A stretch of DNA of 64,000 nucleotides from Leptospiraceae bacterium. GTDB taxonomy: Bacteria > Spirochaetota > Leptospiria > Turneriellales > Turneriellaceae. The notes below the pieces were generated by a model. It was not told where the DNA came from. It did not search any database and worked only from the letters and a program-made list of their open reading frames with translations. Of this stretch, positions 38,801-63,794 are shown piece after piece. The position numbers and the translations under genes are program-made. Position 1 is the stretch's first letter. The number at the start of each line of letters is the position of its first letter. The stretch spans positions 434,001-498,000 of the forward strand of contig JANWWS010000013.1 of NCBI GenBank assembly GCA_025055765.1, read 5' to 3'.

Positions 38801-41800
38801 TATTGCCCAAGTTCGTGGAGTTAGCTGGGTTGATAACGGTGGTGCGCGCCGATCCTGCAAGGTAGTTATCCCTTATGGCAAGATACTGGTAATTTGCGGG
38901 TACCATAGCGGGACCGTTCACTGTTAAAGTGCGCGCAACTCCTGTAATATTACTGGCTATGGTTAAAACACTACCTGCACTTCCTGCAGCGGAGAAGAGA
39001 TTATTTACCGTAACACTGCTTGCCAACGAGATGGTTTTCCCCCCCACAGCTGTATGAAATTCCAAATTATAGAAAGGCCCCCCCCGCAGCTCTTGGTTAG
39101 TGGCACCGGTAAGTTTCACCGTTGAGGTGTGTGCATGGAAAGTACCACCATTGATCATGAAATTTCCCTTCACGTCAAGGGTGGAATTTCTTGTGTAGAA
39201 AACAAAGCCAGGATCATACATATCGAAGTCCCCATGGACAGTAAGCGATACACTGCCCCCTGCCCCACCGAGATCAAGTTGACCAGGCCCGGCGGTTAAA
39301 TAGAATGTTCCCCCTACCTGCCAGGTGGTGTTATTGGCGGCACTTACCTGGGCTGATGTTATGTCTAGAAACCCATTGACCGTTAGGTTTGCGAGGACAT
39401 TTACCGTGCCTGTTTCTAACCATAAATTGTGAAAGGTTTCGCTGTTGGCAATTTGACCTGTTCCTGTACCCATAAAGCGCACGGTACTCGTGCCAGCACT
39501 AAAGCTACCTCCCGTGCGCTGCCACTGGGGGTTTGCTCCCGTTAAACGAATCTCGCTGGCATTGGCGACTAGCTGACCCCCGGTTATATTCAAAGTATTA
39601 ATCGTATTATAAAGGGTGGTGCCTGTATTCAAAGTCCCACTTTGTAAGGTGAGGGTTGTCGTATTTAGAGGATCCTGTAAAGTGTAGGTGGCGTTCGGCC
39701 CTTGAACCACCAATGTGCGAAACATCTGGTTATTGCTGCGCAGGATATAACTTCCTGCCGGAGCTTGTAGGGTCACCACTGAAGAACTCCCCACGCTCAC
39801 CGTTGCCCCTGTATTATTCCAGCTGCCGCTCACGTTAACCATGGAGTTGTTGAGGGAAAGAGAGCCCCCGCTTAAGACAAATTGAGCCGCCTGCATGCTA
39901 TAATGCCCTGTGCTATGGGTGCTAAAGGTACCCGCCACGAGCTCAAAATTGCCATTGGCTATTAAAGGTGCCTGAAGAGTGTAGCTACCTCCCGAAGCAT
40001 TAACTCTCACATGATGGAAGGGAGGGCTGCTTTGGATAGTGTGGCTGCCGACCCCTGTAAAGACAAAAGTGCTGCTGCCGGCACTTAAAGTTCCCCCCGT
40101 TTGTTGAAAGTTTCCATTTACTGTAATGGTGGCTGTACCTGCCGTGAAATTTCCACCAGAGATGCTAAGCAGGCCATTTACCGTAAAATTACCACTACCT
40201 GCATCCACCGTACCCCCCTGAAGCTGAAAGCTACCCGTACCCAAGTTCCGGCTGCCCAACTGAAGGCTACCCGTACCTGACCTTAGCCAGCTGCCGCTGC
40301 AAGTAAAATGGGTGGCCAAGCTCACTTGAGAGTTTCCTGTAAGCTCAACCGGTACCGAACAAATTCCTGCGCTTTGACTTAAAGTTATCGTCCCCGAGGG
40401 GATAATGAGCTTTCCTGTAGTTGAAATGAGCTCTCCACCGGTTTGCACATAGTTCCCGCTAAGAGTAAGATTATTTATTGCTAGATCAAATACACCCGAT
40501 CCTAAAAGATGAAAACCCCCTGAGCCTACTTGTAAGTCGTGTGATAAATAACAGTCCCCACTGTCACGTAACTCCAGGCGCTCTAGACTTCCTGAGGCTT
40601 TCGTAAGAAGATGGTTTGCCCCACTTGCCAAAACAAGTTTGGGAGGATCGGGAGTATGTGCATCGGTTTGCTCAAGATAATTTTGATTTACCGTAATGAT
40701 AGAGTTATTGGCCTTCAAAATGGCATCCGCACCCCCCATGCCATCACCCACCATGAGATTTCCGGAAACGGTAAGCGGGTGGTTTGCCGCGCTTGTGTCA
40801 ACCGTACCATTTTGGATATGCAGACTGTAGAGGTTCGTAGGCCCAGTAAGGGTTAAAGAATACCCTCCGCAGACGACGGCAGCATGACCTGGGCCTGGAA
40901 AAATACCTGCCGCTGTGCGCCCTGGGACGGTGCAATTATCCACACTCCAGTTTCCCCCATTGTCCCAACTGCCTGAGGCATAGGAATAGAGAGTTCCCGC
41001 GGGTGGGGCAAACCACCCCACGTTGTTGCCCATATCCGTGGAATTGGGAGGATTTATAGCTGATCCAACAGCTGTGCCATTAATCACATGGTCTTTTATA
41101 TTGAGGTAACCAAAACTTCCAAGACTGCCATTGACCGTAATAGTGGTTTGGGTTCCAGCCATGGTGCTGCGCAGGTAGATAACCTTACCAGGGCCCCCCA
41201 AGGCGGAAAAGGTACCGGCTACGACATGAACAGCAGAGGACTGCAAAGAAATCTGGCGGGTAACACTTGCCGCAAAACTTAGGTTGTGGAAGGTGGTGCT
41301 TGCGCTCCCAGAAATCGTTTGGTTCGAAAGACCCTGGAAGACAAAGGTAGTCCCCGAAAGATCCACCACACCTGAGTTCACATTGTTAATAAAATCCCCT
41401 CCTATATTCCAAGTTCCTCCCGTAGCGACGAGGTTATTGCCCACACCTGACGAAACCTGGTTTCCTATGATGAGCGAACCACCTATCGTAATATTGGAGT
41501 TCGCCGTATTCAAGGCAAAAATATCATTGGCACCATCACCCAAAACCATGCTTCCTGCTACCTGCACGCTATGGTTATTCGTAGCAAGGGCACCCTTTTT
41601 TAAAGCAAACGGGTTCATAGAGTCATTATTAATAACAAGCGGACTTTGCAACTGGAAGCTACCGGGGCCTGTGATTTCCGCATAGCGCAGGGCTTTGCCC
41701 TTTAGGTCGATGTTCCCACTGCCCTCAAAGATGGTCTTGTGGTTGCCAGTTAGATTTAAATTCGCTGTCGGGCCAGCACTAAAGCTTTTAAGACGCAAGA

Positions 41801-44249
41801 CGTGGTTATTTGCTGTTAAGGTGGCGTTATTTTCGACTGTCAGAGAGTCAAGAGCGGCTCCTAGAGAGATATCTTGGCTAATTTCATGCCCACCACAGAT
41901 AGTCACCGCGCTATTTGCTACCGGAAAAGAATAGGTACCCACCCCCCCACAAGCAGTAGCGGACCAGCTCTCCAAATCGGACCAGGAACCATTGGCACGG
42001 CTGTAGTAGGTGGTAGGGTTTGCTAGAGCAGGATTGTTATTTTCAAAGGCACCTACAGTAAAGCCCGCGGCACCTGCATTGGGAGGGTTATCTGGGGTAC
42101 CCGGAGTTCTTGGTGCCCCATTAAAGTCGTTGTTTAGGTGGACACTAAGATCCTGACCCCCCTGGGCTAAAATAGGGGGGATATTTGTGACATAATTCCA
42201 GTTGTTGTCTAGCATGGTATCGATGTTGTTGTCCGCTCCATCTACGTCCTGAAAATAGTTCAGGGCCACAAGATCGAGGGAAAAATTGCCACTGTAGGCG
42301 GGGCTTAAGGCATGCACCTGACTAATACGGGTCAGATCTGTGGTATTTTCATCTCGATAATGGCCACTGTTGCAACGAAAAATATTGTTATTTTGCACCA
42401 TGCCGGGATCCGAAGAGGCATTTCCCTCATAAATACCATGCCCAACCCCACTTGCGGGGCAAAAAAGGACATTGTTTCGTATGTCCACACTGGGATCATT
42501 GCCGAGCAAGGATATACCTCTTCGGGCATAAATTGTGTTGTTATAAATACGTCCTGTCCCACTTGCGCCGAAGAGGATCCCCTCACTCTGGCTGCCATGC
42601 GTACCACCATGAATTAAATTATTGAAAATCCGTGTATCTATGGAAGAGCCTGCGAGGCGTATTCCATTAGTCCCGCCGGATCCTGTTCCTCCGAAAATCC
42701 GGTTTCTTGCGATAAGCGGCTTTCCAGCCGATCCCACTTGTATAGCAATCGATTGGGAGCGACCTCCCCCATGAATTAAATTGTCCACAATTTGGATTGT
42801 GTTTTGCTCTGACTGACAGAGAATACCGTAAGAAATACCGCCCGTTCCCGACTCACTTCCGTATACGGTATTTTGGGAAATAGTGATATTGCCATGCGCT
42901 GCACCCATTATACGGATCCCATGAGAGCTCCCGCCGGTAGCACCCGCACTATTACCCCAAATGGTGTTGCCCTGGATGAGCACACTTGTGGGGCTTGTGC
43001 TGCCTGTGATATTAATTGCACCCTGTAAGCTCGAGCCCCTACCCCCTTTAATCACCTGGGTGCCCAAAGTCTTGAGAATCGTGGCAGAAATAGCATTTTG
43101 CAACTGAATACCCCAAGACTGTGACCTCGTTCCCCCATCGATTAGAGGGTTGTCTTCAATAAGAACAGAGCCCGTTGTGTTGGCGAAAATACCAATTGAG
43201 ATGCTTGCAGCTCCCGTCTCGCTTCCATATATCGTGTTGTATCGTATTGTTGCCGAACTATCCCCCGTAATTTCAATACCACGGCTCGATCCCCAAACGC
43301 TTCCCGGTGAATTACCCCAGATGGTGTTTCCTTGAATTAAGGGATTGGTTGTACCACCTGTGGCAAATATGCCCCTCTGCAAAGTGCTACCTCTACCCCC
43401 CCGAATTACTTGGCCACTTCCCCCTAAAATTTGAGCTTGGGCACCATTGGCTAAGTAAATGCCGTAGGTGCTCCCACCTACGCCCCCATCAATTGTAGGG
43501 TTAGCTTGGATTATGATGCGATTGCTACTTGATGCAATGTAAAGCGCGTAAGAATCGGTGACCATTATGGCATTTTCGTTGCCGTAGATTTGATTCTGGG
43601 AAATTAGCCAATCTACCGTTGGGTTTACATCACTATGAACATAAATGCCGTAAGAGTTTCCCTCTGCCGCTGACTGGGCCCCATAAATGGTATTTTGGCT
43701 TATGATGGGTCTTGTTTCTATGCCTTCCACATAGATACCATAATTGGCGGTTGTTCCTGTCCCCCCTTTAATAATGTTGTTGGTAATGGTAGGCTTGCTA
43801 CCACCATAGAGGTAAATAGCATAAGAAGTGGCTGCCGAGCCCGCTAAAATCGTAAAGCCATCCAGAACCGTGTTAGCGGTATCACTAATGGCCCCATCCC
43901 CTTCCACAATACGGTCGGGAGAGGCGCCCACGGCCTGTATAGTAGTTACATGAGTGCTGGGATTGCGTACCGAGAAATCTGAACTATAGCCCCCGAGAAC
44001 CTTTATACCATTTTTCAGTGTGATCTTGTTACTAATCGTGTAAGTCCCCTCCGCTACACGAACTTCATCGTTTGTGAGCGCACTTGCCTGGTTTATCGCA
44101 TGCTGGATCGTAGCACATGGTAAAGCTGGCACGAGACAATTGTTTATGGAATCATTACCAGTCGTACTTACATAACGGGGTAGTGGTAAACCGGAATGGA
44201 ACCAAGCCAAGCTGAGGTGACAAAGGGAAAAGAAGGCAAATTTTCGCAT
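35868..44249 (-). CDS. giant secreted beta-helix repeat protein with FlgD/T9SS-like C-terminal domain
   Basis: From the ATG at 44249 (AAAAGGAGC upstream) the product has about 2793 residues and a signal peptide (MRKFAFFSLCHLSLAWFHSG). The first 750 residues are parallel beta-helix repeats of the DUF1565/PbH1 kind (YVSTTGNDS; VRVAEGTYTI; repeated TISQNTVYGSESGTGGISYG-like units). Four modules then begin with a W-rich lead such as YYSRANGSWSDLESWS or LYSYASGSWDNGGNWS (near 42.0, 41.0, 38.8 and 37.3 kb), each leading into Gly/Ser/Thr/Asn-rich strands. Two segments (LTETGHATGIFRTPA; LQETGACTGIFQH) are repeated units. The last 85 residues resemble FlgD-Ig/type A sorting domains (MTIELYDLKGRRIQTLADG, then LRSGLYFIYF). 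It is probably surface-exposed or secreted; the ligand is unknown. Confidence 0.85.
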   Translation of the reverse strand: MRKFAFFSLCHLSLAWFHSGLPLPRYVSTTGNDSINNCLVPALPCATIQHAINQASALTNDEVRVAEGTYTISNKITLKNGIKVLGGYSSDFSVRNPSTHVTTIQAVGASPDRIVEGDGAISDTANTVLDGFTILAGSAATSYAIYLYGGSKPTITNNIIKGGTGTTANYGIYVEGIETRPIISQNTIYGAQSAAEGNSYGIYVHSDVNPTVDWLISQNQIYGNENAIMVTDSYALYIASSSNRIIIQANPTIDGGVGGSTYGIYLANGAQAQILGGSGQVIRGGRGSTLQRGIFATGGTTNPLIQGNTIWGNSPGSVWGSSRGIEITGDSSATIRYNTIYGSETGAASISIGIFANTTGSVLIEDNPLIDGGTRSQSWGIQLQNAISATILKTLGTQVIKGGRGSSLQGAINITGSTSPTSVLIQGNTIWGNSAGATGGSSHGIRIMGAAHGNITISQNTVYGSESGTGGISYGILCQSEQNTIQIVDNLIHGGGRSQSIAIQVGSAGKPLIARNRIFGGTGSGGTNGIRLAGSSIDTRIFNNLIHGGTHGSQSEGILFGASGTGRIYNNTIYARRGISLLGNDPSVDIRNNVLFCPASGVGHGIYEGNASSDPGMVQNNNIFRCNSGHYRDENTTDLTRISQVHALSPAYSGNFSLDLVALNYFQDVDGADNNIDTMLDNNWNYVTNIPPILAQGGQDLSVHLNNDFNGAPRTPGTPDNPPNAGAAGFTVGAFENNNPALANPTTYYSRANGSWSDLESWSATACGGVGTYSFPVANSAVTICGGHEISQDISLGAALDSLTVENNATLTANNHVLRLKSFSAGPTANLNLTGNHKTIFEGSGNIDLKGKALRYAEITGPGSFQLQSPLVINNDSMNPFALKKGALATNNHSVQVAGSMVLGDGANDIFALNTANSNITIGGSLIIGNQVSSGVGNNLVATGGTWNIGGDFINNVNSGVVDLSGTTFVFQGLSNQTISGSASTTFHNLSFAASVTRQISLQSSAVHVVAGTFSALGGPGKVIYLRSTMAGTQTTITVNGSLGSFGYLNIKDHVINGTAVGSAINPPNSTDMGNNVGWFAPPAGTLYSYASGSWDNGGNWSVDNCTVPGRTAAGIFPGPGHAAVVCGGYSLTLTGPTNLYSLHIQNGTVDTSAANHPLTVSGNLMVGDGMGGADAILKANNSIITVNQNYLEQTDAHTPDPPKLVLASGANHLLTKASGSLERLELRDSGDCYLSHDLQVGSGGFHLLGSGVFDLAINNLTLSGNYVQTGGELISTTGKLIIPSGTITLSQSAGICSVPVELTGNSQVSLATHFTCSGSWLRSGTGSLQLGSRNLGTGSFQLQGGTVDAGSGNFTVNGLLSISGGNFTAGTATITVNGNFQQTGGTLSAGSSTFVFTGVGSHTIQSSPPFHHVRVNASGGSYTLQAPLIANGNFELVAGTFSTHSTGHYSMQAAQFVLSGGSLSLNNSMVNVSGSWNNTGATVSVGSSSVVTLQAPAGSYILRSNNQMFRTLVVQGPNATYTLQDPLNTTTLTLQSGTLNTGTTLYNTINTLNITGGQLVANASEIRLTGANPQWQRTGGSFSAGTSTVRFMGTGTGQIANSETFHNLWLETGTVNVLANLTVNGFLDITSAQVSAANNTTWQVGGTFYLTAGPGQLDLGGAGGSVSLTVHGDFDMYDPGFVFYTRNSTLDVKGNFMINGGTFHAHTSTVKLTGATNQELRGGPFYNLEFHTAVGGKTISLASSVTVNNLFSAAGSAGSVLTIASNITGVARTLTVNGPAMVPANYQYLAIRDNYLAGSARTTVINPANSTNLGNTRGWFPASYLYTRATGNYSNGNIWSEWGCGHSNTYGALPHSDSDVQICSGHTVNQDVIGTTKDLTVSGGNLNISSADLTVTGSLSITSGNINIADGRKLVVRQNFYQGGGSIAPSASTGLVELAATSGGPYNINQHGGSLTAALVIDSSQDYRFNSNFSGSSLKKLNSGVITLASGSMSWHAVTIQLSQSFELHQGTAELAYSMLKVNGDFLIHGGSFHAGHGVIEHMGSNFHQIGGSFVPFNSTVRFLGINTTVSGFSQFFRLQNQGGGLTFQSLNRTIYEWTIASTAGTVDVADNSTFTVTIFQKNGGNLTLGPTGNATLIVNSTFSHTGGQITVAMGDVLRVPNALGTGVASRIRLHKSNSYSHDIDDDPTSYGYLFDFHKIHATVEDPSANLNAASADTLMAVVTTSAGESETITLTETGHATGIFRTPAVGFPTAYTAPTVGNNVVEGVVDHVVSLNYMDAYDSLDHHSANTYDTRLADASIKRWVQAGGGDWGVGAHWFPAGVPLATDTVRLDHFLTPGPYTVTLSANQSAGDLTIQGSITLDLGAQNLAVNGSVRVLQGNLTGSGGTVVLSGSGGPYVIETVSPFTGVNLQVNSNANYNLMSHLQVAALQKMGAGGLFFQGRNVSIAGSFQHLSGQLDFSNSHVVVGGDVALASSYQYGGSLLTWNGSGPAFLNAPYLHHLELIGGQIEIPPGSALSLSGNFKKSSGTLVLGSGGNATLEVNGSFEHTGGQIVALSGDVIRGVRAKLELYRKNFTKLLENSAQKRGYYPTEMVEIRLEDLNRNLDCATQESVSVVANTLGMDQENLILQETGACTGIFQHVAASAAHHVTPADGILQFVDNDVLTVSYQDTLDPQTPDAASFETGIGPTVLAKAQLSPDSAKIADNYFDFRIKKKTFLGFNLTQSGRMTIELYDLKGRRIQTLADGHFEDGDNFLEWDLSQSSLRSGLYFIYFTSPNWKKPIMYQLIVVR

Positions 44250-44338
44250 AGTGCTCCTTTTATTTGACGAGGCGGTGCATAAAAAGTAAACCATTTTTCC
44301 CTTGCCGAGACGACTTTTTTTGCATTTCTTGTTTGTAA

Positions 44339-52752: not shown

Positions 52753-53769
52753 CTATTCTTTTATTTTTAAATTCCCCTCATCGTCTAAAACTAGCTTTGT
52801 TTCTGGGAAGTCCTCTCTTATGAGTTTTTGCAGAAGCTTTATTGTTTTCTTTTCTGGGTCATAAGCGGGTATATTCGCCTTGCTTAACTCGAGTGGTATA
52901 ACGCGGCCTCTCATAAAATCTCCTTTTTCATTAAGCTCTGCCTCGAGGATAAGAGAGTGGTTCGTATAACCTTTTGTTCCAAAAACATAATAACCCATAA
53001 AATTGCCTAGGGAGTAGGCAATAAGTTTTCCTTTGTAGAGCTCTAGGGCACGGGGGACATGAGGTCCGTGTCCAATCACAATGTCGGCCCCAGCATCAAT
53101 CATAGCTCGTGAAAAAGCAACAACATTGCCTCGGTTTTCCCCCACATACATCTCTATTTGGTTTCTTGTGTGGATGTAGGCACTGCCTTCAGCTCCACCA
53201 TGGAAGGTTACGACCACAATCTCAGCCCCCCCTTTCCTTGCCTTTTTCACAAGCTCAGCGCCTTTTTTTAAATCATGTATGGAGTTATGTCTAAGATAGC
53301 TAAAGCCAATAGCCGCTACTTTTTTTCCTCCCAGTTGCATATACTCAATATGGTCAAGCATACCTGTTACCGAAATGCCATACTGGCGCAAGGCCTTTTG
53401 GGTATCGACATAACCCTCATAAAAAAAATCCCCACTGTGATTATTTGCCACATTCATTAAATGAAAACCTACATCGGCTAGGACCTTGGCATATTCGGGA
53501 GGAGCTCGGAAAGCAAACATATTAGGTCGTGAAATATTCTTAGCAGAACGAGGATGGTCGGTGAGCGTTCCTTCGTAATTACCCATTAAGAGATGAGCTC
53601 CCTTGAGATATTCTTCAACATGGCGGAAAAGGGTCTTCCGGGGATTCTTTGGTAGTCTATCAACAGGGTAATTTGTACCAAAAACTAAATCACCCACCGC
53701 CTTAATCCTAAATGTCTGGGCAAAAAGAAATTCAAAGACAAGAACAACAAACGCAAGATAGTGCTTCAT
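52753..53769 (-). CDS. CapA-family (PGA_cap) metallophosphoesterase-like secreted protein
   Basis: From the ATG at 53769 the 338-residue protein has a signal peptide (MKHYLAFVVLVFEFLFAQ) and a CapA fold. Visible motifs are AVGDLVFGTN, LMGNYEGTLTD, NVANNHSGDFFYEG, VVTFHGGAEGS, IVIGHGPHVPRALE and IAYSLGNFMG. These are the conserved metal-site blocks of the family linked to poly-gamma-glutamate capsule synthesis. No pgsB/C genes are nearby, so the family label does not establish a capsule role. The upstream in-frame TTG at 53802 would place residues before the signal and is unlikely. Confidence 0.88.
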   Translation of the reverse strand: MKHYLAFVVLVFEFLFAQTFRIKAVGDLVFGTNYPVDRLPKNPRKTLFRHVEEYLKGAHLLMGNYEGTLTDHPRSAKNISRPNMFAFRAPPEYAKVLADVGFHLMNVANNHSGDFFYEGYVDTQKALRQYGISVTGMLDHIEYMQLGGKKVAAIGFSYLRHNSIHDLKKGAELVKKARKGGAEIVVVTFHGGAEGSAYIHTRNQIEMYVGENRGNVVAFSRAMIDAGADIVIGHGPHVPRALELYKGKLIAYSLGNFMGYYVFGTKGYTNHSLILEAELNEKGDFMRGRVIPLELSKANIPAYDPEKKTIKLLQKLIREDFPETKLVLDDEGNLKIKE

Positions 53770-53850
53770 GCTTTCGCACAGGAAAGGTAAGTTAGCTGTC
53801 AAGCTAAAACATTATGTCACATAACCTTTTTCTTTAAGATAAGGAGCTTC

Positions 53851-54297
53851 TCAAATTTCAGGCCTAGTACTTTCTTCGGCTTCCCGGCTAGCACGAATTG
53901 CTTCTTCTAGAGCATTTTGAAAGTCGCGCTCCCTTTGAAATTCTTTTTGCCATTTTTTTATCCTTTCCTGTAGTTCACCTAAACCTTGGCGCAGAGCCTG
54001 GTAGGTTTGATGAAATTTCTCCTCAATCTTTTTTTTGTTTTCTGTTAGCTCGGGATACCTATTGGCAAGTTCCCTATACTCTTGAGCGGTTTTCTTTACC
54101 GATTCACCATACTGACGCAATATTTCTATTACTTCCTCTTTAGATTTTGCTGTCCGAGCTTTCTTTAGCAAATCATTTAACTTTTGCCTCGCCCCTTGCA
54201 TGATCTTCTCTACTTCCTGAAGATATTTTTCTTCCCGGCTTTGACAAAAGGCCAAGAGGAAAACCACAAACCACAAAAAGACAACTCCACCTCTCAT
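53851..54297 (-). CDS. small helical lipoprotein
   Basis: The 148-residue protein has a lipoprotein signal (FLWFVVFLLAFC, Cys 18) followed by an uninterrupted charged helical region with heptad character (LQEVEKIMQGARQKLNDLLK; KKIEEKFHQTYQALRQGLGE). I do not recognise a family. It is in line with the UbiA-like, lipoprotein and CapA-like genes on the minus strand, with gaps of about 80-90 nt on both sides. Confidence 0.6.
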   Translation of the reverse strand: MRGGVVFLWFVVFLLAFCQSREEKYLQEVEKIMQGARQKLNDLLKKARTAKSKEEVIEILRQYGESVKKTAQEYRELANRYPELTENKKKIEEKFHQTYQALRQGLGELQERIKKWQKEFQRERDFQNALEEAIRASREAEESTRPEI

Positions 54298-54350
54298 GAA
54301 GTTAGGTTAACGAAAATGCGAGCTTGCATCAACGAAAAAATCAACCAGAT

Positions 54351-54373
54351 TTTTGGGAAACCTTGTCCCAAAA
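54351..54373. terminator. possible hairpin after the UbiA-like gene
   Basis: TTTTGGGA and TCCCAAAA (54351-54358 and 54366-54373) form an 8-bp stem with a 7-nt loop, just after the stop at 54387. No continuous U tract adjoins it on the minus strand, so termination is uncertain. Confidence 0.35.
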
Positions 54374-54386
54374 GCAAAAAATCTTT

Positions 54387-55841
54387 TTAGATAGAGAACA
54401 AAACCAAGATAACAGAAAGGGTACTGAGAAAAGCATAAAACCACTTTGCCTTGGCCGAGTTTAAGAGAAAGTAGGCTGCTATTGCGGAAAGAATGGCATG
54501 TGTAACTAGAGAAAAAGCATCAGAATAATAGAGATAACCTGCTATTATAAGAAAGATAAAGCTGGTTACGGCATAGAGACGCTGAAAGAGCCTTAGCCTT
54601 ACCCCCTTTTTATATAAATAGGTGTAGAAAGTAACCCTTTTTTCATGAAAGTCTTGGCGGATGTCTTTCGCATCTTTAGCTACGGAAAAAAAAGAAAAAC
54701 CCCCAAAAAGCACCAATGAGTAAATGACTGTTTCTTTATGGGGAAAATCAATTTGGCCTGCCATGGCCCCTGTAAGATAGCTGAACATCCCCCATAAACC
54801 CTCAATTTTCATCGAGCCATAGGCAGTGTTGCGTGCCTCATAAAAGGGGTAGTGGTAAAGTACGGATAGGCTCCAGCTGGCAAGTCCTAAGAGGGCAAAT
54901 TTATAACCTGCAAATAAAATCATGAGAATAATAGCTACCGCAAAAAAATTGGCTACCAAACCATGTCGATAAAGCGAGGGATGTTTTTGTGGATCTACCT
55001 TACATTGGAAGTCATTATGGGCAATGGCCACCAGAGCTGCGCTTAGAGTAACCCCTAAGGCCATGAGATAATGCGGGAACATAGCCATACTTTGTCTAAG
55101 CCCAGCCCAAGTTGCGAGTAAGAAAGGAGCCACGTGAAAGAGTCGCCTTAGATAATTTTTCAAAGACTTAGTCATGTGAGCATCCACAAACCAAGAAAGA
55201 AAAACTTGCATGAGAGCTATAGCATAAACAATTTGGCGTTTTTGACTAAAACTATAGCTTGAAAATCCCTCAGGGGTGGGTATTTCTCCAAAAAGTAACA
55301 ACATCCCTGAAGCCGGTAGGGCTAGGGAATAGGTTAGGTAGGCAAGATAGCCCAGAAACAAGGAGAGAAATGCTTTTCCTATATTTTTTTTTATGTAATA
55401 TACATAGGTAAAAACTAGAAAAAAGGAAAGCCAAATGGTTATAGCCTCCCCAAGGGGATAGTTTTTGGCGGGATTATAACCAAGCCAGGGAAAATTTTCC
55501 CAATCTCTCGTGACAAAATAGCCATAAAATACGGAATGGGTTTTATCGGTACCAAGCAGAAAATCTATAATGGGGGGAAGTAGCCCTAAAAGTGTAGCGA
55601 AGGTAACTGCTTGCAGGATTTTCTCATATGCCAATCCCAAGAGAGATAAAAAAAAACCATAAACAAAGGGCAAAGACAAGTAAAAAGGAACAAAAGCCAA
55701 AACATCACTAGCTCTTGCCTCAATACCAAAAAAAACATGCTCTAATATCCCCCTCGCTATGCCCACAAAGAGGGAAAAAAAAAGCAGGGTTTGAAGAGAA
55801 AAATCAGTCTTTCTTTGTCGCAGGATCCAAAAGCGGATCAT
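54387..55841 (-). CDS. polytopic membrane protein with UbiA-like C-terminal half
   Basis: The 484-residue protein has about 13-14 predicted membrane segments. The first half (about 1-215) has no recognised family. The second half shows two aspartate motifs spaced as in UbiA prenyltransferases: AHNDFQCKVD near residue 275 (usual NDxxDxxxD, one Asp replaced by Cys and one residue shorter) and KDAKDIRQDFHEKRVTF near 387 (DxxDxxxD). UbiA enzymes join a prenyl chain to an aromatic or other acceptor in the membrane. Function here is uncertain and the first motif is degenerate. Its ATG overlaps the upstream lipoprotein stop (TGATG). Confidence 0.5.
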   Translation of the reverse strand: MIRFWILRQRKTDFSLQTLLFFSLFVGIARGILEHVFFGIEARASDVLAFVPFYLSLPFVYGFFLSLLGLAYEKILQAVTFATLLGLLPPIIDFLLGTDKTHSVFYGYFVTRDWENFPWLGYNPAKNYPLGEAITIWLSFFLVFTYVYYIKKNIGKAFLSLFLGYLAYLTYSLALPASGMLLLFGEIPTPEGFSSYSFSQKRQIVYAIALMQVFLSWFVDAHMTKSLKNYLRRLFHVAPFLLATWAGLRQSMAMFPHYLMALGVTLSAALVAIAHNDFQCKVDPQKHPSLYRHGLVANFFAVAIILMILFAGYKFALLGLASWSLSVLYHYPFYEARNTAYGSMKIEGLWGMFSYLTGAMAGQIDFPHKETVIYSLVLFGGFSFFSVAKDAKDIRQDFHEKRVTFYTYLYKKGVRLRLFQRLYAVTSFIFLIIAGYLYYSDAFSLVTHAILSAIAAYFLLNSAKAKWFYAFLSTLSVILVLFSI

Positions 55842-56431
55842 CAGTACTCCCGCAATGGGGCTCGGAAGGGATCAGCATAATATTGAACAAGTTCACTGCT
55901 TTCGCGTCTCTCAGCCCTAAGTCTTATACGATAGCCATCTGTCAGGTAATACCAGAGCCTATTTTCCTTTTCGTAAACCAACACACTCTCCTCCACGTAT
56001 TCTCTACCCTGTCCATCTCTTTTAAGAAGCCGTAGAATAAATCTTGAGCTGTTCTTATATGGGTATAGTTTTCCCTGACTTGCACTAAGGTTGTAGTGCC
56101 TTACGACAAAAAGCTGATACACAAAAGGATTTTCCATGCGAAAAAATAAATCACTATCTTTTAAGAGATTTTCTATAACTTCAGGACTGTTTTCATGAGC
56201 CTGTGGTTGATAATTCTTGAGAAAACGCTGGCGAATGTAGTGGGAAAAATCACTATGCTCGGCTATCCAAAGACCTCTCCCCTCACCGTCATATAATGGT
56301 GGGTTTGTAAAAAAAAGCCTCACCACCTCATAGCGGGGGTCCTCTTGGAATAGCCCTCCCCGCTCTTTATTGTCCCGGCTACAAAAAAAAGTAAAAGTAA
56401 GCAATAAAAAGAGCCAGAAAGAATACGCCAT
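55841..56431 (-). CDS. lipoprotein of unknown function
   Basis: The 196-residue protein has a lipoprotein signal (FWLFLLLTFTFFC, Cys 17). The mature part is beta-rich and aromatic, with no recognised domain (VRLFFTNPPLYDGEGRGLWI; RFILRLLKRDGQGREYVEES; RLWYYLTDGYRIRLRAERR). It begins 1 nt after the stop of the giant lipoprotein gene and overlaps the UbiA-like gene by 1 nt, so these three are probably one transcription unit. Confidence 0.6.
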   Translation of the reverse strand: MAYSFWLFLLLTFTFFCSRDNKERGGLFQEDPRYEVVRLFFTNPPLYDGEGRGLWIAEHSDFSHYIRQRFLKNYQPQAHENSPEVIENLLKDSDLFFRMENPFVYQLFVVRHYNLSASQGKLYPYKNSSRFILRLLKRDGQGREYVEESVLVYEKENRLWYYLTDGYRIRLRAERRESSELVQYYADPFRAPLREY

Positions 56432-59400
56432 CTAGGGTGGCTGGATGGCCGCATCAACAGCCGGGTCAAGCTTACAGCTTGCCGACTGATAATTTCTTTC
56501 TGTTTTCCAGCTGCCTCCATTCATAAAGCAACTTTGCGCAAGCGCGCGACCCGTACCAGAGGCGTTAGCTCCACTACAATAGGTACCAAAGTAGAAGCCA
56601 TAGGAGGAACCGCTGGACGTGTTTCCCAAATCACCCGCATTTAAGCCTTCTTGGACACAGAGCCAATTGTTAGTATCCCGGTTTTCATCGTTTCTGGTAC
56701 AATAACTCTGGACCCCCGCGGCAGGATCACTGTCAATTACAACCGTGCCATCAAAACCACGCGGGGGAGGAAAGCCGACCCAACTGTTATTTGTCGTCAT
56801 AACCCAACCCACAATACCACTACCCTCTCCTTTAAGCACACTCCATAAATCATTTCCATTATTCGTACTATTGTTGTTTTCTGTATTGGAGCCAATCCCA
56901 TCATCCATGTTGCCAGCTATACTGCTAAGCCCATTCCATATGATGCGGTCTGTTTCGTCTTCTATGGTCACGACGAAACTACCTCCAGATTCCTCTGGCA
57001 GGTAAGCTTGGCAGTTTTCGGTTCTTACTCCTTGATTTGTACCCCATTGATAGTTTCCATACTTGTAACCGGCAGTAACCTCCCTAGCACGAATGCACTG
57101 AGGGGCTGTTGGCCTGGGATTACCCGGAGGCGACGCCGTGCCGTAGCTGCGCCCCACGGCCTTATACATCCCCCCTGAAGCACCATCACTCCAGCTTACC
57201 GCGGGACAGGCTCCCGGATGTTCGCCGTTATCCCGTGCCCAACCACAATTCATGGCAGCAATCGCCACCTGCCATCCCATGTTGAAAAGTACTCCCTCGA
57301 GATAAGGACCTGCTTCTAAATTTAAGACCGCTGCCAGCCGACGAGGACCTAACCCCGTAAATTCTAGGCAGGCGGGAGCAGAGGTACCAGCATCATTGCC
57401 AACATTTCTACGAATGATTCTCGTGCCAAAGTGTACCATGGAGGCAAATGCTTTGGCTGTCTCATCTTCGTCATCATCTAGATTGTTCGCTAAATATACT
57501 AGAGAGCGGTTAATTGCCGCCGGATGAGTGTCATTAATTAAAGCTGCGGTTACCTGCCCCGGCACCCACTTTAGGAACTGGCCCAGACTACGAATCCTGC
57601 GAGTGGAGTTAACCATATTTATGGTTTTTCCTGTGTCCTGTACATCCCCAACAACATACGAAAAGGGTAGACCATCATTGACACTGAGCATCATGGTCAC
57701 CAAGCGAGCTCGACCATCATAAGGATCGTTGTTGTTATAGTAACCCCCACTTACGAGAGTTCTTGTCGGCTTGGTATATACCGGATCATTACAGCTGTAG
57801 TACATATCGCTTACCGAAACCCAGTTGGTATTGTTGGCATGTTTTGCACGCCAGAGATAGCCGGCTGCGTTACAAGCTTCCTCGTACTGATAGGCCTGAT
57901 GCTGTAGCGTGCCACTGGCATTGACACAGGAGGGGCCATACTGGATATACTTGTCAAAAGCTGGTTTAAGCCCGCAATACTGAATACCATTTATGACACG
58001 GACCACCCTTACTTGCTGCCCGTCGGTTCGTGGCGTCGAACCGTTATAGCCTAACTTATTTACGACATCATATAGTACCAACATATCCCCCACAGCTTTG
58101 CTGGTAGAACTTGCCCCTAAAAGATCTCCCTCTCCCACATTACCACGCAGGCGGCTGTCACCTACACCGTTAATTAAAGCCAAGAGCTTGTTAAACTCTG
58201 CCCCTCGCCAAATGCCACCCGCAGCGAGGCAACCAGCGCGGGTCGTTTGTGCTGGGTGTGTGAGACAGCGCCCCACTCCAAACCATGTACCACCCGCCGA
58301 GGCACAGGTTGTCGAGTTATCCGTAGTATCATTTATCCCAGGCACATATACCGTACAAGCGTCGGCTCCATTGATTATCTTTATCATGAGATTTACATTT
58401 TGCAAATGGTTGATAATATGAGTTAGGTAACGTATGCGGTTTACTTGCGCAATGAGGTCTTTCACGTAGCTAAAATCTTGGGTCTCATTTACTAAGGCAA
58501 TGGTATCCGCAATATTGGTAATTTCGTTTATCATAACCACTGTTTTACCTAGCCGATCCACATTATTCGTGTCGCAGCCTTTGCCATCGGGGAAGCCTGA
58601 CATAGTGGCACAGCCGCCCCCGCTAGGATTGGCCCCATATTTGGGACTTACATCGGCAGCTAGGCCCACGGCAGATCCATAGGTTAGATTACCCATACTA
58701 TTCAACAAATCAAGAAGACGAGCTGAATTCGGAGAGTTATTTATGAGTTGCACGACAAGATTGATGTTTGTCGCTTCGTTAATGGTCCGGTTTAAATATA
58801 CCATTCTCTCAATGTTCAATATGAGGTCGGTTAAAATGGGAAATTTATCTATGGGCGTAGTCTGTACTCCATTAACAAGAGAAATCACATTGCCAATGCC
58901 CCCTGTTACGTTGTTTATAAGCGAAATAAGTTTGCCTAATTTGTCGTGGTCAGGGCTCATCTTCATGCGGTCGCCCCCCGTGTTGTTTGTGGGATATTTG
59001 GGCGTCGGATCACCAAAATTTGCCGTAGCATCGCCGCAGGTATCAATAATTCTTTCAATACGTGTGATATCCGTGGTATTGGGATGATTTAATAAATCTT
59101 GAATTAGACTGACATTGCCCGTTTCTGACACCATACGGGACAGATACTTAATACGATTCGTATTTTGAACTAAGTAGGATAGATAGCCTAGGCGAGCATA
59201 GGTAGTTCCATTTACTAACGAAGCAATATTATATCCTCCGTTTGCACCCATATCCCCCACCAAGGTGGTTAGCCGGCCAAAGATATCCGCTGTAGCGTTC
59301 GATGTTGCATCATTGTAGCGAGGGCTACTCATGGTGCGCAGCTCCCATAAGACCTCAACCATCCTGCGCATGCCACTTTTAACTGGGGCATCCGGATCCA

Positions 59401-61876
59401 GGTAGCTAACAATTTTGGCTACATTGACAGCACCTCCGGAAAAGCTGCCAATGTCTATAATAAGGCGTGCCAAGTGGTTTTCAATACAAAAGAGATTTTC
59501 ATTGGGATTTCTCACATATGGTCCATAGGGGGGATTAACATAAATTTGCGAAGAGGGGGTCTCCCCAAAGACTTTGCTGCAAGAAGGCCAATGACCCTGG
59601 GATACGCTTACATTTTGCAACTCATTAAAGACAGCAGCTAACTTCTCACCCCCGTCCGCTCCTGCATTGGTGTTAAGAGGCACATCTTTACCATGTAAAA
59701 AGAGATTATTTAATATAACGGCAACATCACTTGTAGAGGGGATATTGTTAATTAAAATTTGCATATTTCGATTGGGCACACCATCAATCATCCGCACAAG
59801 GTTCGAAGCCCCTGCTGCTGTGAGATTATTCACAACATCCGTAATTTTGTTCCCTGCGTTGACTCCCGTTAAACCATTTACCAAACCCACTAAGTTCGAG
59901 GCATTGTCGTTAAAATCAATGGCAAAGACCATGCGTTCAAAACCATTTCCGTTTAGACCATTCAAGATATCCACCATAGTGGGGACAGACGTGAGATCTT
60001 TTACAATGGTCACAAGTTTGGGATCACTGTTTATGTCGGTGGGATATTCCACGCGGTTGATAATTCCGATGAGGGCATCAAGGCCATTGTTGTTGGTTGG
60101 CGTACAAGTATGTGGTGTATTGACACAGGCCGGTGCACTTACTCCGTTTAGGATTTCCGCTACATTCGTGATGGAATTGATCCGAAGTTTATTGAGCATA
60201 ATGGCCACTTTTTCCGCAGCTGTTCGAGGTGCTCCCTTCTCACCTGGAACCTGAATGGAATCTACCCAAACCTGACTTGTATCGCCTATGGGCCGTACTA
60301 GTTCCCAGCGAAAACGATAGCGCCCCGGTGAGCTTATGGCATAGTTAAAGGTACTCCAGGCACCTGGTGAGGCAATATTTAGCCGGGCAACATTATTTAC
60401 ATAAAGCTTAAAACTTGCTCCTCCCGCAAGATTGGTGTAGGCACGAAAGGTGAGATTGCCCGTCTCGAGAACATTGGCAGTCATTTCCATCACGAGGACC
60501 CTTGTGTCTTCGGTAGCAGCTGCCGGATTAGTACGTGCAGAACAAACACCACCGTCCACAATGCCAGTTCCAGAACGCCAGCCATGGCCCCACCAAGGCG
60601 CCCCTGCCGGACCATTGGCGGAAAAAGCTATACCAAGCCGATTCGCGAATAGCCCGTTGGCACAGTCTGTTCCATTGTCAAAATTTTCATCATTGGAAGC
60701 GGTTGGGACAGTATCTAGATTGTTCACGACATAGGTGAGACGATGAACATTGCTGATATGATTTAAGGTGGCAACCATAGCATCAACACCCTTGTCAGAG
60801 CCTGGATTGCCATCATTCGTAAGCTTATTCATGATTTCGTTGAGGTTATTCACATTTGTCACAAAGTTTACAATTTGAGAAAGTTTATGGGTATTGGAAC
60901 TCCAACTTTGATTGGCCAAGCGACAAGCCGACTTTGTACGCAGGGTTGGATTGCTACAGATACCACTCTCATTGATAATACGTATCATCGCCGCAATACC
61001 ATCTCTGGCACTGCCTATTAGCCAGCTGCCTCCATTCGCGGTGCAGGCGGCTTGCGTTGTATAGGGCTTACCTGTCGCTGGATTGTTCACCGTACACGTA
61101 TCATCTTCCGTTAAACCGGAAAGGATACTTGTGATATTACTTAAACTTGTAGTAGCATTTATAATTGCCGCCAACTCCTTTACATCATGGATCTCGTTGA
61201 TAATGCGCAGAATTCTTCTTGTTCCCTGACTAGAATATACTCCACCAGGAGCACCTACCTGGTTAATGATTGTCGGTAACACACTCATGTTTTCATCGAC
61301 AAGCGCCAGGAAATACCCCAAGCGCAGCATAGCTCGCTTGCCGTTAGCTATACCTGGATCCCCCACATCAAAACTCGTTGTTGGTTCAAGACCCCGAATG
61401 ATTTCCTTTAATGACTTCATTCCCTCAAGGCTGACACTGTTAATTAAATTTGCCACTTTGCCTATCGTGTTTGTCGAGCTTGCCCCTGGCCAAGTCACCG
61501 CTGTGTTGGTCTGCAAAAGTAAGTCTAGCACCTCAATTGCCGTCAAGCGATTAGGATCGGACATGAGCGCCACTAGTTTCGTGCCATCTCCTATTGCGTT
61601 AATTAGCTGTGTCATGTTCGAGACCCCTGCTCCATACGCCAAGGTTTGGAAACTTTCTTCTCCAATACCAGCAATGAGAATATCGTAGTTTTTCCCTATA
61701 GCCCGTCTCCACTCCTCAGGGGTATAGGTTTTAGCACTCTCCTTGTCTCGCTTAAGGTTCCGTGAAAATTCCGTTTCGCTGACTTTCTTCGAACAGGAAA
61801 CATAGAGAATAATAATTGACGGCAAGAGAATAGCACGAAGTGACTTTGCAACTAGGCAATAGATGCGGTCTTTCAT
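56432..61876 (-). CDS. giant asparagine/leucine-repeat lipoprotein with Cys-GGxW inserts
   Basis: The 1814-residue protein starts at an ATG with AAAGGAGG upstream and has a lipoprotein signal (ILLPSIIILYVSC). Most of it consists of irregular repeats of about 25-30 residues built on the pattern LxxLVNxINxxxN (for example IVNFVTNVNNLNEIMNKL and VIGLVNGVQ-like units), probably short helices. At least six inserts share a Cys-x(n)-Cys-x(4-5)-GGxW core (TQAACTANGGSW; TRAGCLAAGGIW; AQSCFMNGGSW), suggesting disulfide-bonded loops. Residues of about 395-545 form a beta-sandwich-like insert (TANVLETGNLTFRAYTNLAG; QVWVDSIQVPG) resembling carbohydrate-binding or MAM-type modules. It is likely on the cell surface; the function is unknown. 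Confidence 0.8.
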   Translation of the reverse strand: MKDRIYCLVAKSLRAILLPSIIILYVSCSKKVSETEFSRNLKRDKESAKTYTPEEWRRAIGKNYDILIAGIGEESFQTLAYGAGVSNMTQLINAIGDGTKLVALMSDPNRLTAIEVLDLLLQTNTAVTWPGASSTNTIGKVANLINSVSLEGMKSLKEIIRGLEPTTSFDVGDPGIANGKRAMLRLGYFLALVDENMSVLPTIINQVGAPGGVYSSQGTRRILRIINEIHDVKELAAIINATTSLSNITSILSGLTEDDTCTVNNPATGKPYTTQAACTANGGSWLIGSARDGIAAMIRIINESGICSNPTLRTKSACRLANQSWSSNTHKLSQIVNFVTNVNNLNEIMNKLTNDGNPGSDKGVDAMVATLNHISNVHRLTYVVNNLDTVPTASNDENFDNGTDCANGLFANRLGIAFSANGPAGAPWWGHGWRSGTGIVDGGVCSARTNPAAATEDTRVLVMEMTANVLETGNLTFRAYTNLAGGASFKLYVNNVARLNIASPGAWSTFNYAISSPGRYRFRWELVRPIGDTSQVWVDSIQVPGEKGAPRTAAEKVAIMLNKLRINSITNVAEILNGVSAPACVNTPHTCTPTNNNGLDALIGIINRVEYPTDINSDPKLVTIVKDLTSVPTMVDILNGLNGNGFERMVFAIDFNDNASNLVGLVNGLTGVNAGNKITDVVNNLTAAGASNLVRMIDGVPNRNMQILINNIPSTSDVAVILNNLFLHGKDVPLNTNAGADGGEKLAAVFNELQNVSVSQGHWPSCSKVFGETPSSQIYVNPPYGPYVRNPNENLFCIENHLARLIIDIGSFSGGAVNVAKIVSYLDPDAPVKSGMRRMVEVLWELRTMSSPRYNDATSNATADIFGRLTTLVGDMGANGGYNIASLVNGTTYARLGYLSYLVQNTNRIKYLSRMVSETGNVSLIQDLLNHPNTTDITRIERIIDTCGDATANFGDPTPKYPTNNTGGDRMKMSPDHDKLGKLISLINNVTGGIGNVISLVNGVQTTPIDKFPILTDLILNIERMVYLNRTINEATNINLVVQLINNSPNSARLLDLLNSMGNLTYGSAVGLAADVSPKYGANPSGGGCATMSGFPDGKGCDTNNVDRLGKTVVMINEITNIADTIALVNETQDFSYVKDLIAQVNRIRYLTHIINHLQNVNLMIKIINGADACTVYVPGINDTTDNSTTCASAGGTWFGVGRCLTHPAQTTRAGCLAAGGIWRGAEFNKLLALINGVGDSRLRGNVGEGDLLGASSTSKAVGDMLVLYDVVNKLGYNGSTPRTDGQQVRVVRVINGIQYCGLKPAFDKYIQYGPSCVNASGTLQHQAYQYEEACNAAGYLWRAKHANNTNWVSVSDMYYSCNDPVYTKPTRTLVSGGYYNNNDPYDGRARLVTMMLSVNDGLPFSYVVGDVQDTGKTINMVNSTRRIRSLGQFLKWVPGQVTAALINDTHPAAINRSLVYLANNLDDDEDETAKAFASMVHFGTRIIRRNVGNDAGTSAPACLEFTGLGPRRLAAVLNLEAGPYLEGVLFNMGWQVAIAAMNCGWARDNGEHPGACPAVSWSDGASGGMYKAVGRSYGTASPPGNPRPTAPQCIRAREVTAGYKYGNYQWGTNQGVRTENCQAYLPEESGGSFVVTIEDETDRIIWNGLSSIAGNMDDGIGSNTENNNSTNNGNDLWSVLKGEGSGIVGWVMTTNNSWVGFPPPRGFDGTVVIDSDPAAGVQSYCTRNDENRDTNNWLCVQEGLNAGDLGNTSSGSSYGFYFGTYCSGANASGTGRALAQSCFMNGGSWKTERNYQSASCKLDPAVDAAIQPP

Positions 61877-61929: not shown

Positions 61930-61953
61930 GGCCAAAAATTTTGCAAGAAAATT

Positions 61954-61982
61954 GTGCGCCGCACAAAATTAGTGCGCCGCAC
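61954..61982 (-). terminator. terminator formed by a tandem near-palindrome spanning a stop codon
   Basis: Two copies of GTGCGCCGCAC (61954-61964 and 61972-61982) are each nearly self-complementary. In the minus-strand transcript they can pair as an 11-position stem with one central mismatch and a 7-nt loop that contains the stop codon of the upstream gene. AATTTT follows. The layout fits an intrinsic terminator with a weak U tract. Confidence 0.6.
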
Positions 61983-62832
61983 CAAAAGAGAGCTCAGTGC
62001 CCAAAAAAATAAAAAAATAACTTGGTCGAGTTACCGCATAGACAGCGTTTTCCGAGCTTACATGGGTAAAAAGGGGATTGCCGTTCCCCAAGAGCCTAAG
62101 ATAAGCATGCGATAAGACAAGTCTCTGAGCGGGCAGAAGGCCAGCTCCCATTCGAAGACGTAACGGCAAATTAACCAAGGAAAAACGATTTTCCACAAAT
62201 ATCTGCATTTCCACAGAGAGAGGTGATTCTTCCTGCCATAAGGCGCGCGCATCCACGGTGTAGAAACCACTATGGGGACCTGCCTGGAACACACTCCTCT
62301 CGGATCTAAGCTCATAGCTACCCTGCTGGTATAAAAGCCCTCCTCCCAGAGACAATCCAACATATGGCTCGACCCAGGGCCTCCCGAGCCACCCAAGCGA
62401 GTAGAAAAGATGACTATAAAAAAAATAGCTTTCTTTCTCAAGCAATACTTTTTCCCTTAAAGGGAATTCGGCCGAGGTGAGACTCGCATGGGGAGCCGAG
62501 GGCCAATAAAATCTTTCGGTTCCGTAGTAAATCCTCTCATTTTGCCATTGGGTTATGGAAAAACGCAATGACAAAGCCCAGCTGAGCTGGGGTAAAATTT
62601 CCTTTTTGTTATGGATTTCCATAACAACCCTAAGTTCGGGGGCAGCAAACGCAATAGTTTTTTCCTTAAAGTAGTATTCCATGGCCGCGCTTCGACGAGC
62701 GCGTGATACAAAAGGCGAAAGATCCTGACTCTGGTACAAAAGGCAGCCCTCAAGGCCCGGAACAAGATAAAGTGTCTTATCTTTGGCAAGAAGAGCTAGG
62801 GTCTGAAATAAAAAAATAAAAAAATACCTCAT
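61969..62832 (-). CDS. probable outer-membrane beta-barrel protein
   Basis: From the ATG at 62832 the 287-residue protein has a signal peptide (MRYFFIFLFQTLALLAKDK) and alternating aromatic/hydrophobic strands typical of outer-membrane barrels (YVGLSLGGGLLYQQGSYEL; LSVEMQIFVENRFSLVNLPL; YFFIFLGTELSFGAAH). No family is recognised. The start codon overlaps the upstream stop (ATGA), and the two proteins have similar size and layout, so they may be diverged duplicates or partners. The last codons lie inside the terminator stem. Confidence 0.6.
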   Translation of the reverse strand: MRYFFIFLFQTLALLAKDKTLYLVPGLEGCLLYQSQDLSPFVSRARRSAAMEYYFKEKTIAFAAPELRVVMEIHNKKEILPQLSWALSLRFSITQWQNERIYYGTERFYWPSAPHASLTSAEFPLREKVLLEKESYFFYSHLFYSLGWLGRPWVEPYVGLSLGGGLLYQQGSYELRSERSVFQAGPHSGFYTVDARALWQEESPLSVEMQIFVENRFSLVNLPLRLRMGAGLLPAQRLVLSHAYLRLLGNGNPLFTHVSSENAVYAVTRPSYFFIFLGTELSFGAAH

Positions 62833-63740
62833 AAATCCCAGCGATACGATACCTCGGCAAAGATACCCCACAAGGTTATCTGAAGACCCACCGCAGGTGG
62901 GATAAATGTGACACTCTGGGCATAGATATCCTCATCTTTTATGGCAGAGAGTCTAGCCCAAACCGTGTTACGCAGCCAGAGTAGCCCTCCTTGAATGCCG
63001 AGAGTAAAGGAAAGATCCCTAGAAAAGCGCACATAGGGGCGCAGGGCAAAACCTCGGCCTGAGATCCCCCGGCTATGCCAGCTTGCTACCATCGCATAAC
63101 CATGGTCTTGTTCAAGGCGGCTTAACTGCCAGTTGAAATCTATCCGATTATAAAGCTGGTAATATTTCAAGGAAAGACCCAGGTAGAGCGGTAGGGAAAA
63201 CCAGATCCAAGGTTTTTTCCACTCTACATATAGAATGGGGGATACTCCCCAATACCATTCGTTACCAGTAACAATAAGCTCATAGGTGGCCATCCCGTGA
63301 GTCTCCTCTACAAAACCCCAGCGTGCCAGGGGGCAGTGATGTAACTCTAGGGGGGAGCAAACCCTAGACTCCTGGAGTAAGGAGCTCCCCCGGAAAAAAA
63401 CCGTGTTTTGGGGAAATCCCAATAAAACCTGCAAACCGAGAGAAAACTCAAAATCCGTGTAGGTAAGGAGGGCTTTCCCTATAATGGGGCCAGAAAACAA
63501 AGGGATGACCTCTCTTTCCACATGTTGGGTTGCTCTTACGGAAAAACGGGTATGGAAATCCTGATCCTCAAGCAGAATCTCTCCCCCATTTACTGTGTTT
63601 AATAGCTGCTTCTCCAGAAAATTCGCCCGAAGACCAGGCCAAAATATTTCGGCGCCATAGCCCGTAAGTAGAGCCAGGCATGGCCTGGGTCCAAAGGTGA
63701 CACATAAAAGGATAGCTATTTTTTTTATTCTATCTAACAT
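62829..63740 (-). CDS. probable outer-membrane beta-barrel protein
   Basis: From the ATG at 63740 the 303-residue protein has a typical signal peptide (MLDRIKKIAILLCVTFGPRP, then CLA). It is followed by strand-rich, aromatic sequence (YTDFEFSLGLQVLLGFPQNT; PWIWFSLPLYLGLSLKYYQL; LQITLWGIFAEVSYRWDL). No family is recognised. A GTG at 63791 would extend it by 17 residues but lacks a ribosome-binding site and spoils the signal peptide. A 14-residue leader frame (63778-63734) overlaps the chosen start and could couple translation. It lies downstream of nadB. Confidence 0.6.
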   Translation of the reverse strand: MLDRIKKIAILLCVTFGPRPCLALLTGYGAEIFWPGLRANFLEKQLLNTVNGGEILLEDQDFHTRFSVRATQHVEREVIPLFSGPIIGKALLTYTDFEFSLGLQVLLGFPQNTVFFRGSSLLQESRVCSPLELHHCPLARWGFVEETHGMATYELIVTGNEWYWGVSPILYVEWKKPWIWFSLPLYLGLSLKYYQLYNRIDFNWQLSRLEQDHGYAMVASWHSRGISGRGFALRPYVRFSRDLSFTLGIQGGLLWLRNTVWARLSAIKDEDIYAQSVTFIPPAVGLQITLWGIFAEVSYRWDL

Positions 63741-63778
63741 TCGTTTGGTAAAACAAAAAGCAGGTTGTGTTTTTCCAT
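63734..63778 (-). CDS. possible 14-residue leader peptide overlapping an outer-membrane protein start
   Basis: The frame MEKHNLLFVLPNEC begins 17 nt after the nadB stop, with GAGGACA upstream at good spacing. It ends with a TAG that begins 4 nt after the first base of the next gene's ATG at 63740. That downstream ATG has no clear ribosome-binding site of its own, so translational coupling is plausible. The peptide may have no independent role. Confidence 0.35.
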   Translation of the reverse strand: MEKHNLLFVLPNEC

Positions 63779-63794
63779 AATATGTCCTCACAAA

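Follow-up and report, generated by a model that had tools for sequence, protein, structure and literature searches.

The window analysed here, a stretch of 64,000 nucleotides, is part of a 528-kb contig in the 2.5-Mb genome of a Turneriella-like spirochaete (G000). On its minus strand are four consecutive genes, and all four open reading frames lie where a preliminary description of this DNA had placed them. They encode a giant lipoprotein of 1814 residues (56432-61876), a putative lipoprotein of 196 residues (fam3, 55841-56431), a UbiA-like membrane protein of 484 residues carrying an additional N-terminal six-helix domain (fam1, 54387-55841), and a helical lipoprotein of 148 residues (fam2, 53851-54297). 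A Shine-Dalgarno sequence of good quality is found upstream of the giant's start (AAAGGAGG, junction sequence). The TAG stop codon of the giant directly touches the ATG of the 196-residue gene, in the same frame, giving a gap of 0 nt and not the 1 nt first described. The 1-nt overlap described for the next junction is present, in the form TGATG, and a further 89 nt separate the UbiA-like gene from that of the 148-residue protein.

Two terminator-like hairpins, found by pattern match only, lie directly upstream of the giant (61952-61985, minus strand) and suggest that the transcription unit begins there. Just upstream of the giant we also see one gene for a putative outer-membrane beta-barrel (fam8, 62829-63791, minus strand), homologues of which adjoin other giant lipoprotein genes in genomes G003, G005, G007 and G010. 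For a second, barrel-like upstream ORF (61969-62871), no relative could be detected among the other loci. The opposite flank is a gene for a PGA_cap-domain protein (52753-53802, minus strand). Elsewhere in the window, a secreted protein of 2808 residues with no Pfam match (35868-44294, minus strand) is encoded between rimP-nusA-infB and a CcmF-like gene; judged by eye, it seems to end at the C-terminus in a FlgD/sorting-type Ig tail, and a short stretch of it matches an 860-residue gene adjoining PGA_cap in the sister genome G004. A HAMP and adenylate/guanylate cyclase protein of 899 residues is encoded at 17401-20100 on the plus strand.

The calling of three of the four products as lipoproteins holds at the family level. 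In all members of the giant, 196-residue and 148-residue families with an intact N-terminus, the signal peptide ends in a conserved Cys right after the hydrophobic stretch, and this lipid-attachment Cys is the only invariant column in the alignment of the 148-residue family. The lipoboxes of the window proteins themselves are atypical in the residues before the Cys (YVSC, TFFC and LAFC). The 148-residue family is so divergent that a firm tree is not possible; it has strong matches in all eight family genomes with this type of giant, as well as in G009, and additional copies exist, with no strong match in the near-complete genomes G002 and G006. PADLOC models gave no defence-system match, only weak coiled-coil matches of the helical 148-residue protein.

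The giant lipoprotein falls into two parts. Residues 1 to ~1124 (58503-61876, minus strand) comprise a signal peptide, the lipid-attachment residue Cys28 and Asn-rich repeats, and this part appears to be vertically inherited. Residues ~1125-1814 (56432-58503, minus strand) form a putatively exchangeable C-terminal module with Cys-rich inserts, which we refer to as type A. Over their ~600-700 residues, the C-terminal parts of types A and B align as homologues from end to end, most stretches being about 29-49% identical. Sequence searches of Pfam, NCBIfam and PDB were empty for the whole giant, whether as a single sequence or as an alignment, and the C-terminal module likewise gave no Pfam, NCBIfam or PDB match. 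An AlphaFold model of residues 1090-1814 together with eight homologues had a pLDDT of 34 and was unusable. The giant family is present in 8 of the 13 family genomes, and G103, of the same phylum, has a single clear distant relative. Three of the four families in the cluster have no match to a curated family or solved structure, and no description of these families was found in literature searches.

For the membrane protein, the Pfam UbiA model (PF01040) is matched by 8 of the 11 fam1 members, several of them above the curated cut-off (best 1.4e-11), and the window protein on its own gave no match. Its AlphaFold model (pLDDT 87) has a six-helix N-terminal part and a nine-helix C-terminal part, the latter being the alpha bundle that characterises the UbiA superfamily. 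Foldseek comparison of this model with the PDB returned UbiA proteins as all of its top hits (probability 1.00, best E 2e-3, TM-score normalised by target ~0.6). On the basis of this model, we assign the protein to the UbiA superfamily. The UbiA-type aspartate motifs of the preliminary description are borne out in part: motif II, of the DxxxD type, is intact (KDAKDIRQD, residues 389-397, 54651-54677, minus strand), but motif I is degenerate (NDFQCKVD, residues 276-283, 54993-55016, minus strand), with a Cys in place of the second Asp of the consensus NDxxDxxxD. This Asp is also lost in G007 (NDFNVTAT), and is kept in the other 9 of the 11 aligned fam1 members. As motif I is broken, ordinary UbiA catalysis at this locus is doubtful; the UbiA-like protein would at most be an active enzyme in some of the relatives. 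The N-terminal six-helix domain has five invariant residues across fam1 (R30, E34, D93, Y106 and E132) and no relative of it was detected. Yip1 was considered as its identity, but the Yip1 model misses these genes and no link emerged with HHalign, albeit with a poor comparison set. No internal duplication of the UbiA domain was seen.

Gene order was then compared among relatives, the majority of which are draft metagenome bins. The nearest include the sister genome G004 (IF-2 identity 73-75%), G003, and a group of Turneriella genomes consisting of G005, G007, G008, G009, G010 and G011, where G005 is a near-complete genome of 4.4 Mb in two contigs. Whether the four genes stay together in related genomes had been put forward as a test of their association, and the outcome is largely positive. 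Turneriella sp. G007 has all four genes in the order and strand seen in the window. The giant, 196-residue and 148-residue genes are found together in G005 and G011, the giant, 148-residue and UbiA-like genes follow in that order in G008, and in G003 the giant is followed by a CCP/MauG di-haem protein, a FAD_binding_4 oxidase (both assigned by Pfam), the UbiA-like gene and the 148-residue gene. The exception is the UbiA-like gene in G005 and G011, which was undetected anywhere in either genome; the last two genes there overlap by 4 nt exactly where it is missing. The complete cluster occurs only in the window and G007, the same two that lack the second Asp of motif I. Pairs of the 196-residue and UbiA-like genes also occur with no giant in G003 and G010. 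Because the order recurs in other genomes, the arrangement is more than chance.

Giant paralogues commonly adjoin either an NHL-repeat lipoprotein (fam7) or the putative beta-barrel fam8, a wider neighbourhood pattern that fits an envelope system. Several further neighbours were recorded. The large fam7 lipoprotein adjoins giant paralogues at G000:C41:82000-96000 (L060) and at L058, L061, L142 and L143; it has a HExxH-like motif by eye, and is also present in G103, which belongs to another lineage of the phylum. In G005, G007 and G011, the giant and its partners have as neighbour a convergent cluster of GT2, GT-C-like and GNAT genes (L052, L053, L043 and L112). This cluster is present in duplicate in both G005 and G011, with a further small UbiA gene behind it in G005. 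Di-haem CCP/MauG proteins neighbour type-B giants or their UbiA-like genes at L044, L047, L048 and L054, and in G003 the pair of 196-residue and UbiA-like genes comes after one for a protein of the lipase maturation factor (LMF1) family (L045:3348-4973).

Comparison with the sister genome shows where the two parts of the giant meet. At the nucleotide level, the window resembles contig C159 of G004 as far as 58503, and similarity to G004 picks up again at 53715, within the PGA_cap gene, leaving a segment of ~4.7 kb (53851-58503, minus strand) that comprises the C-terminal module and the three smaller genes and that differs in type from G004. The PGA_cap gene is 75-76% identical to its G004 counterpart, which likewise adjoins UbiA-like and 148-residue genes, and only 48-50% identical to the Turneriella copies, which are located elsewhere. 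The adjacency of giant and PGA_cap gene in G004 is inferred, because the giant is on contig C159 and the PGA_cap region on C154. At the protein level, in a comparison that covers residue 602 onward, where the G004 giant is sequenced, identity is 80-91% over residues 601-1100, then drops to about 40%, and is 37-49% beyond residue 1200. The opposite is seen against G007, with 29-44% over residues 601-1000 and about 55-72% past the break; the C-terminal module is 42-70% identical to those of G005 and G011.

Phylogenetic trees give the same picture. Those of the N-terminal and middle parts of the giant match the species tree, built from IF-2, within the limits of its resolution, placing the window with G004, and G007 and G010 as sisters inside Turneriella. 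In the C-terminal tree, the window instead groups with G005, G007 and G011 (support 100/100), and both expected pairings are rejected, window with G004 at an AU p of 3e-44 and G007 with G010 at p 1e-4. The UbiA-like trees also reject window with G004 (AU p 1e-35, and p 4e-44 in another test) and G007 with G010 (p 2e-133). For the C-terminal part of G010, type B against a deep branch gave p 0.32. These p values are somewhat optimistic, as the clades were defined once a first set of trees had been viewed, but their size leaves room. These trees assign the last third of the giant and the UbiA-like gene to the Turneriella type, and the type of the UbiA-like gene tracks that of the C-terminal part in both genomes whose giants are discordant between parts, namely the window and G010. 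Taken with the flanks, they indicate that the last third of the giant and the three small genes were replaced as one block by a relative's version. The block may be mixed in origin, as the window's 196-residue protein groups, weakly, with those of the giant-free pairs and lies outside the G007/G005/G011 versions. Base composition changes little across the break, and when used to judge recent transfer it gave no clear signal.

Such a replacement suggests that the proteins work together, and supports this better than adjacency does. The earlier proposal of a joint function gains from the co-segregation of UbiA-like and C-terminal types and from the recurring order. Since linkage by itself can move neighbouring genes together, the cause cannot be read from their co-inheritance, and G010, a draft genome in which the giant and the UbiA-like gene are on different contigs, is the sole evidence that goes beyond linkage. 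The UbiA-like gene is off the giant's contig in G004 as well as in G010, and those contigs are short. It is conceivable, if on balance unlikely, that these are independent envelope genes in a loose neighbourhood, with no joint function and a block moved by linkage only. The families do also occur separately, as in the giant-free pairs of G003 and G010, there are the extra copies of the 148-residue gene, and many giant paralogues have other partners; against this, order and overlapping starts recur in several genomes, and the types still match in G010 despite the separate contigs. We regard as improbable the model first offered for this locus, in which a lipid-linked product synthesised by the UbiA-like protein is joined to the giant lipoprotein or carried by it. 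The UbiA fold, the intact motif II and the co-segregation with the C-terminal type speak for it, as does the case of G003, one of the type-B genomes, which keep the second Asp: adjoining its UbiA-like gene are a di-haem CCP/MauG enzyme and an FAD oxidase that, among solved structures, is closest to cytokinin oxidases, berberine-bridge-type enzymes and an LctD subunit. Yet precisely the genomes with the complete cluster have lost that Asp, G005, which is near-complete, and G011 retain three lipoproteins with the UbiA-like gene undetected, and neither an acceptor motif nor a transferase came to light. The broken motif I and the two genomes without the gene weaken the idea, which is unsupported at this locus; lipid attachment is possible in type-B genomes.

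The replacement itself could be read in two other ways. A conserved N-terminal part, with an exchanged C-terminal part and exchanged downstream genes, is the hallmark layout of a polymorphic-toxin-like locus, wherein the exchangeable third would be an effector and the small proteins immunity or accessory factors. This is very unlikely here, as the type A and type B parts are long homologues and not the unrelated C-terminal domains of such toxins, and no toxin, nuclease or defence family was matched. Least probable of all is that an assembly or binning chimera has joined two strains within the giant gene. The break is indeed sharp at the homology level, but the contig is 528 kb long, the ORF stays in frame across the break, G004-like sequence returns on the far side, and base composition barely changes; moreover, even the nearest Turneriella copy differs from the C-terminal part by 28-45%, which leaves no known strain as its source.

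The explanation we prefer, with confidence that is evenly balanced, is that this is an envelope locus in which the lineage-specific N-terminal two thirds of the giant carry an exchangeable C-terminal third that acts with dedicated small proteins encoded behind it. The joint function is here inferred from gene order and co-inheritance. The giant and the two small lipoproteins would be Sec-exported and lipidated and would end up in the outer membrane or at the surface, with the N-terminal two thirds of the giant as anchor and stem and the C-terminal module as the probable working part, which the 196-residue and 148-residue lipoproteins may fold, anchor or join in a complex. The UbiA-like protein would be an inner-membrane protein, and versions of it with intact motifs would process an isoprenoid substrate for the same complex. 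Having lost the second Asp of motif I, the window protein most likely no longer performs ordinary Mg-diphosphate prenyl transfer; it may retain only a binding role or a role for its N-terminal domain, or be nearing loss as in G005 and G011. A bolder version, to which we give little credence, is a new envelope system of interchangeable giant-lipoprotein tips, each with a cognate maturation set that chemically modifies or arms the tip. The type-B set would then comprise a UbiA enzyme that processes isoprenoids and bears a new N-terminal domain, along with a di-haem MauG-like oxidase and, in G003, an FAD oxidase, and the type-A set the small lipoproteins and a decaying UbiA.

A tail replaced along with the adjoining genes amounts to a natural experiment, one that indicates partners without any work at the bench. 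Provided the link is real, it offers a route to the function of giant lipoproteins in free-living spirochaetes, and a case in which a UbiA-type protein is seen to lose a catalytic motif, and finally its gene, within such a system.

Among the closest known systems is the UbiA superfamily itself (PF01040), represented by A. fulgidus UbiA (4tq3/4tq4), archaeal DGGGP synthase (6m31/7bpu) and a membrane-bound PRTase (8j8j). As in these proteins, the C-terminal 260 residues are modelled as nine helices, motif I following the second and motif II the sixth, whereas fam1 adds the six-helix N-terminal domain and has a broken motif I in the window and G007. The decaprenyl-phosphoribose pathway combines UbiA with DprE1 and DprE2, and prenyl-aromatic pathways with UbiA and an FAD oxidase also exist. 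The UbiA-like gene similarly adjoins a FAD_binding_4 oxidase in G003 and G025; the window cluster differs in having no such oxidase, and DprE1 is not among the hits of the relatives' oxidase. In polymorphic toxin loci (CdiA-CT/CdiI and Rhs), and in the phage tail-fibre tip with its chaperone, a C-terminal part and its downstream partners are exchanged together. The window likewise keeps the N-terminal part and appears to have exchanged the C-terminal part with its partner genes, but its C-terminal variants are long and homologous, no toxin or chaperone family is represented, and the partners are three accessory genes, two of which encode predicted lipoproteins.
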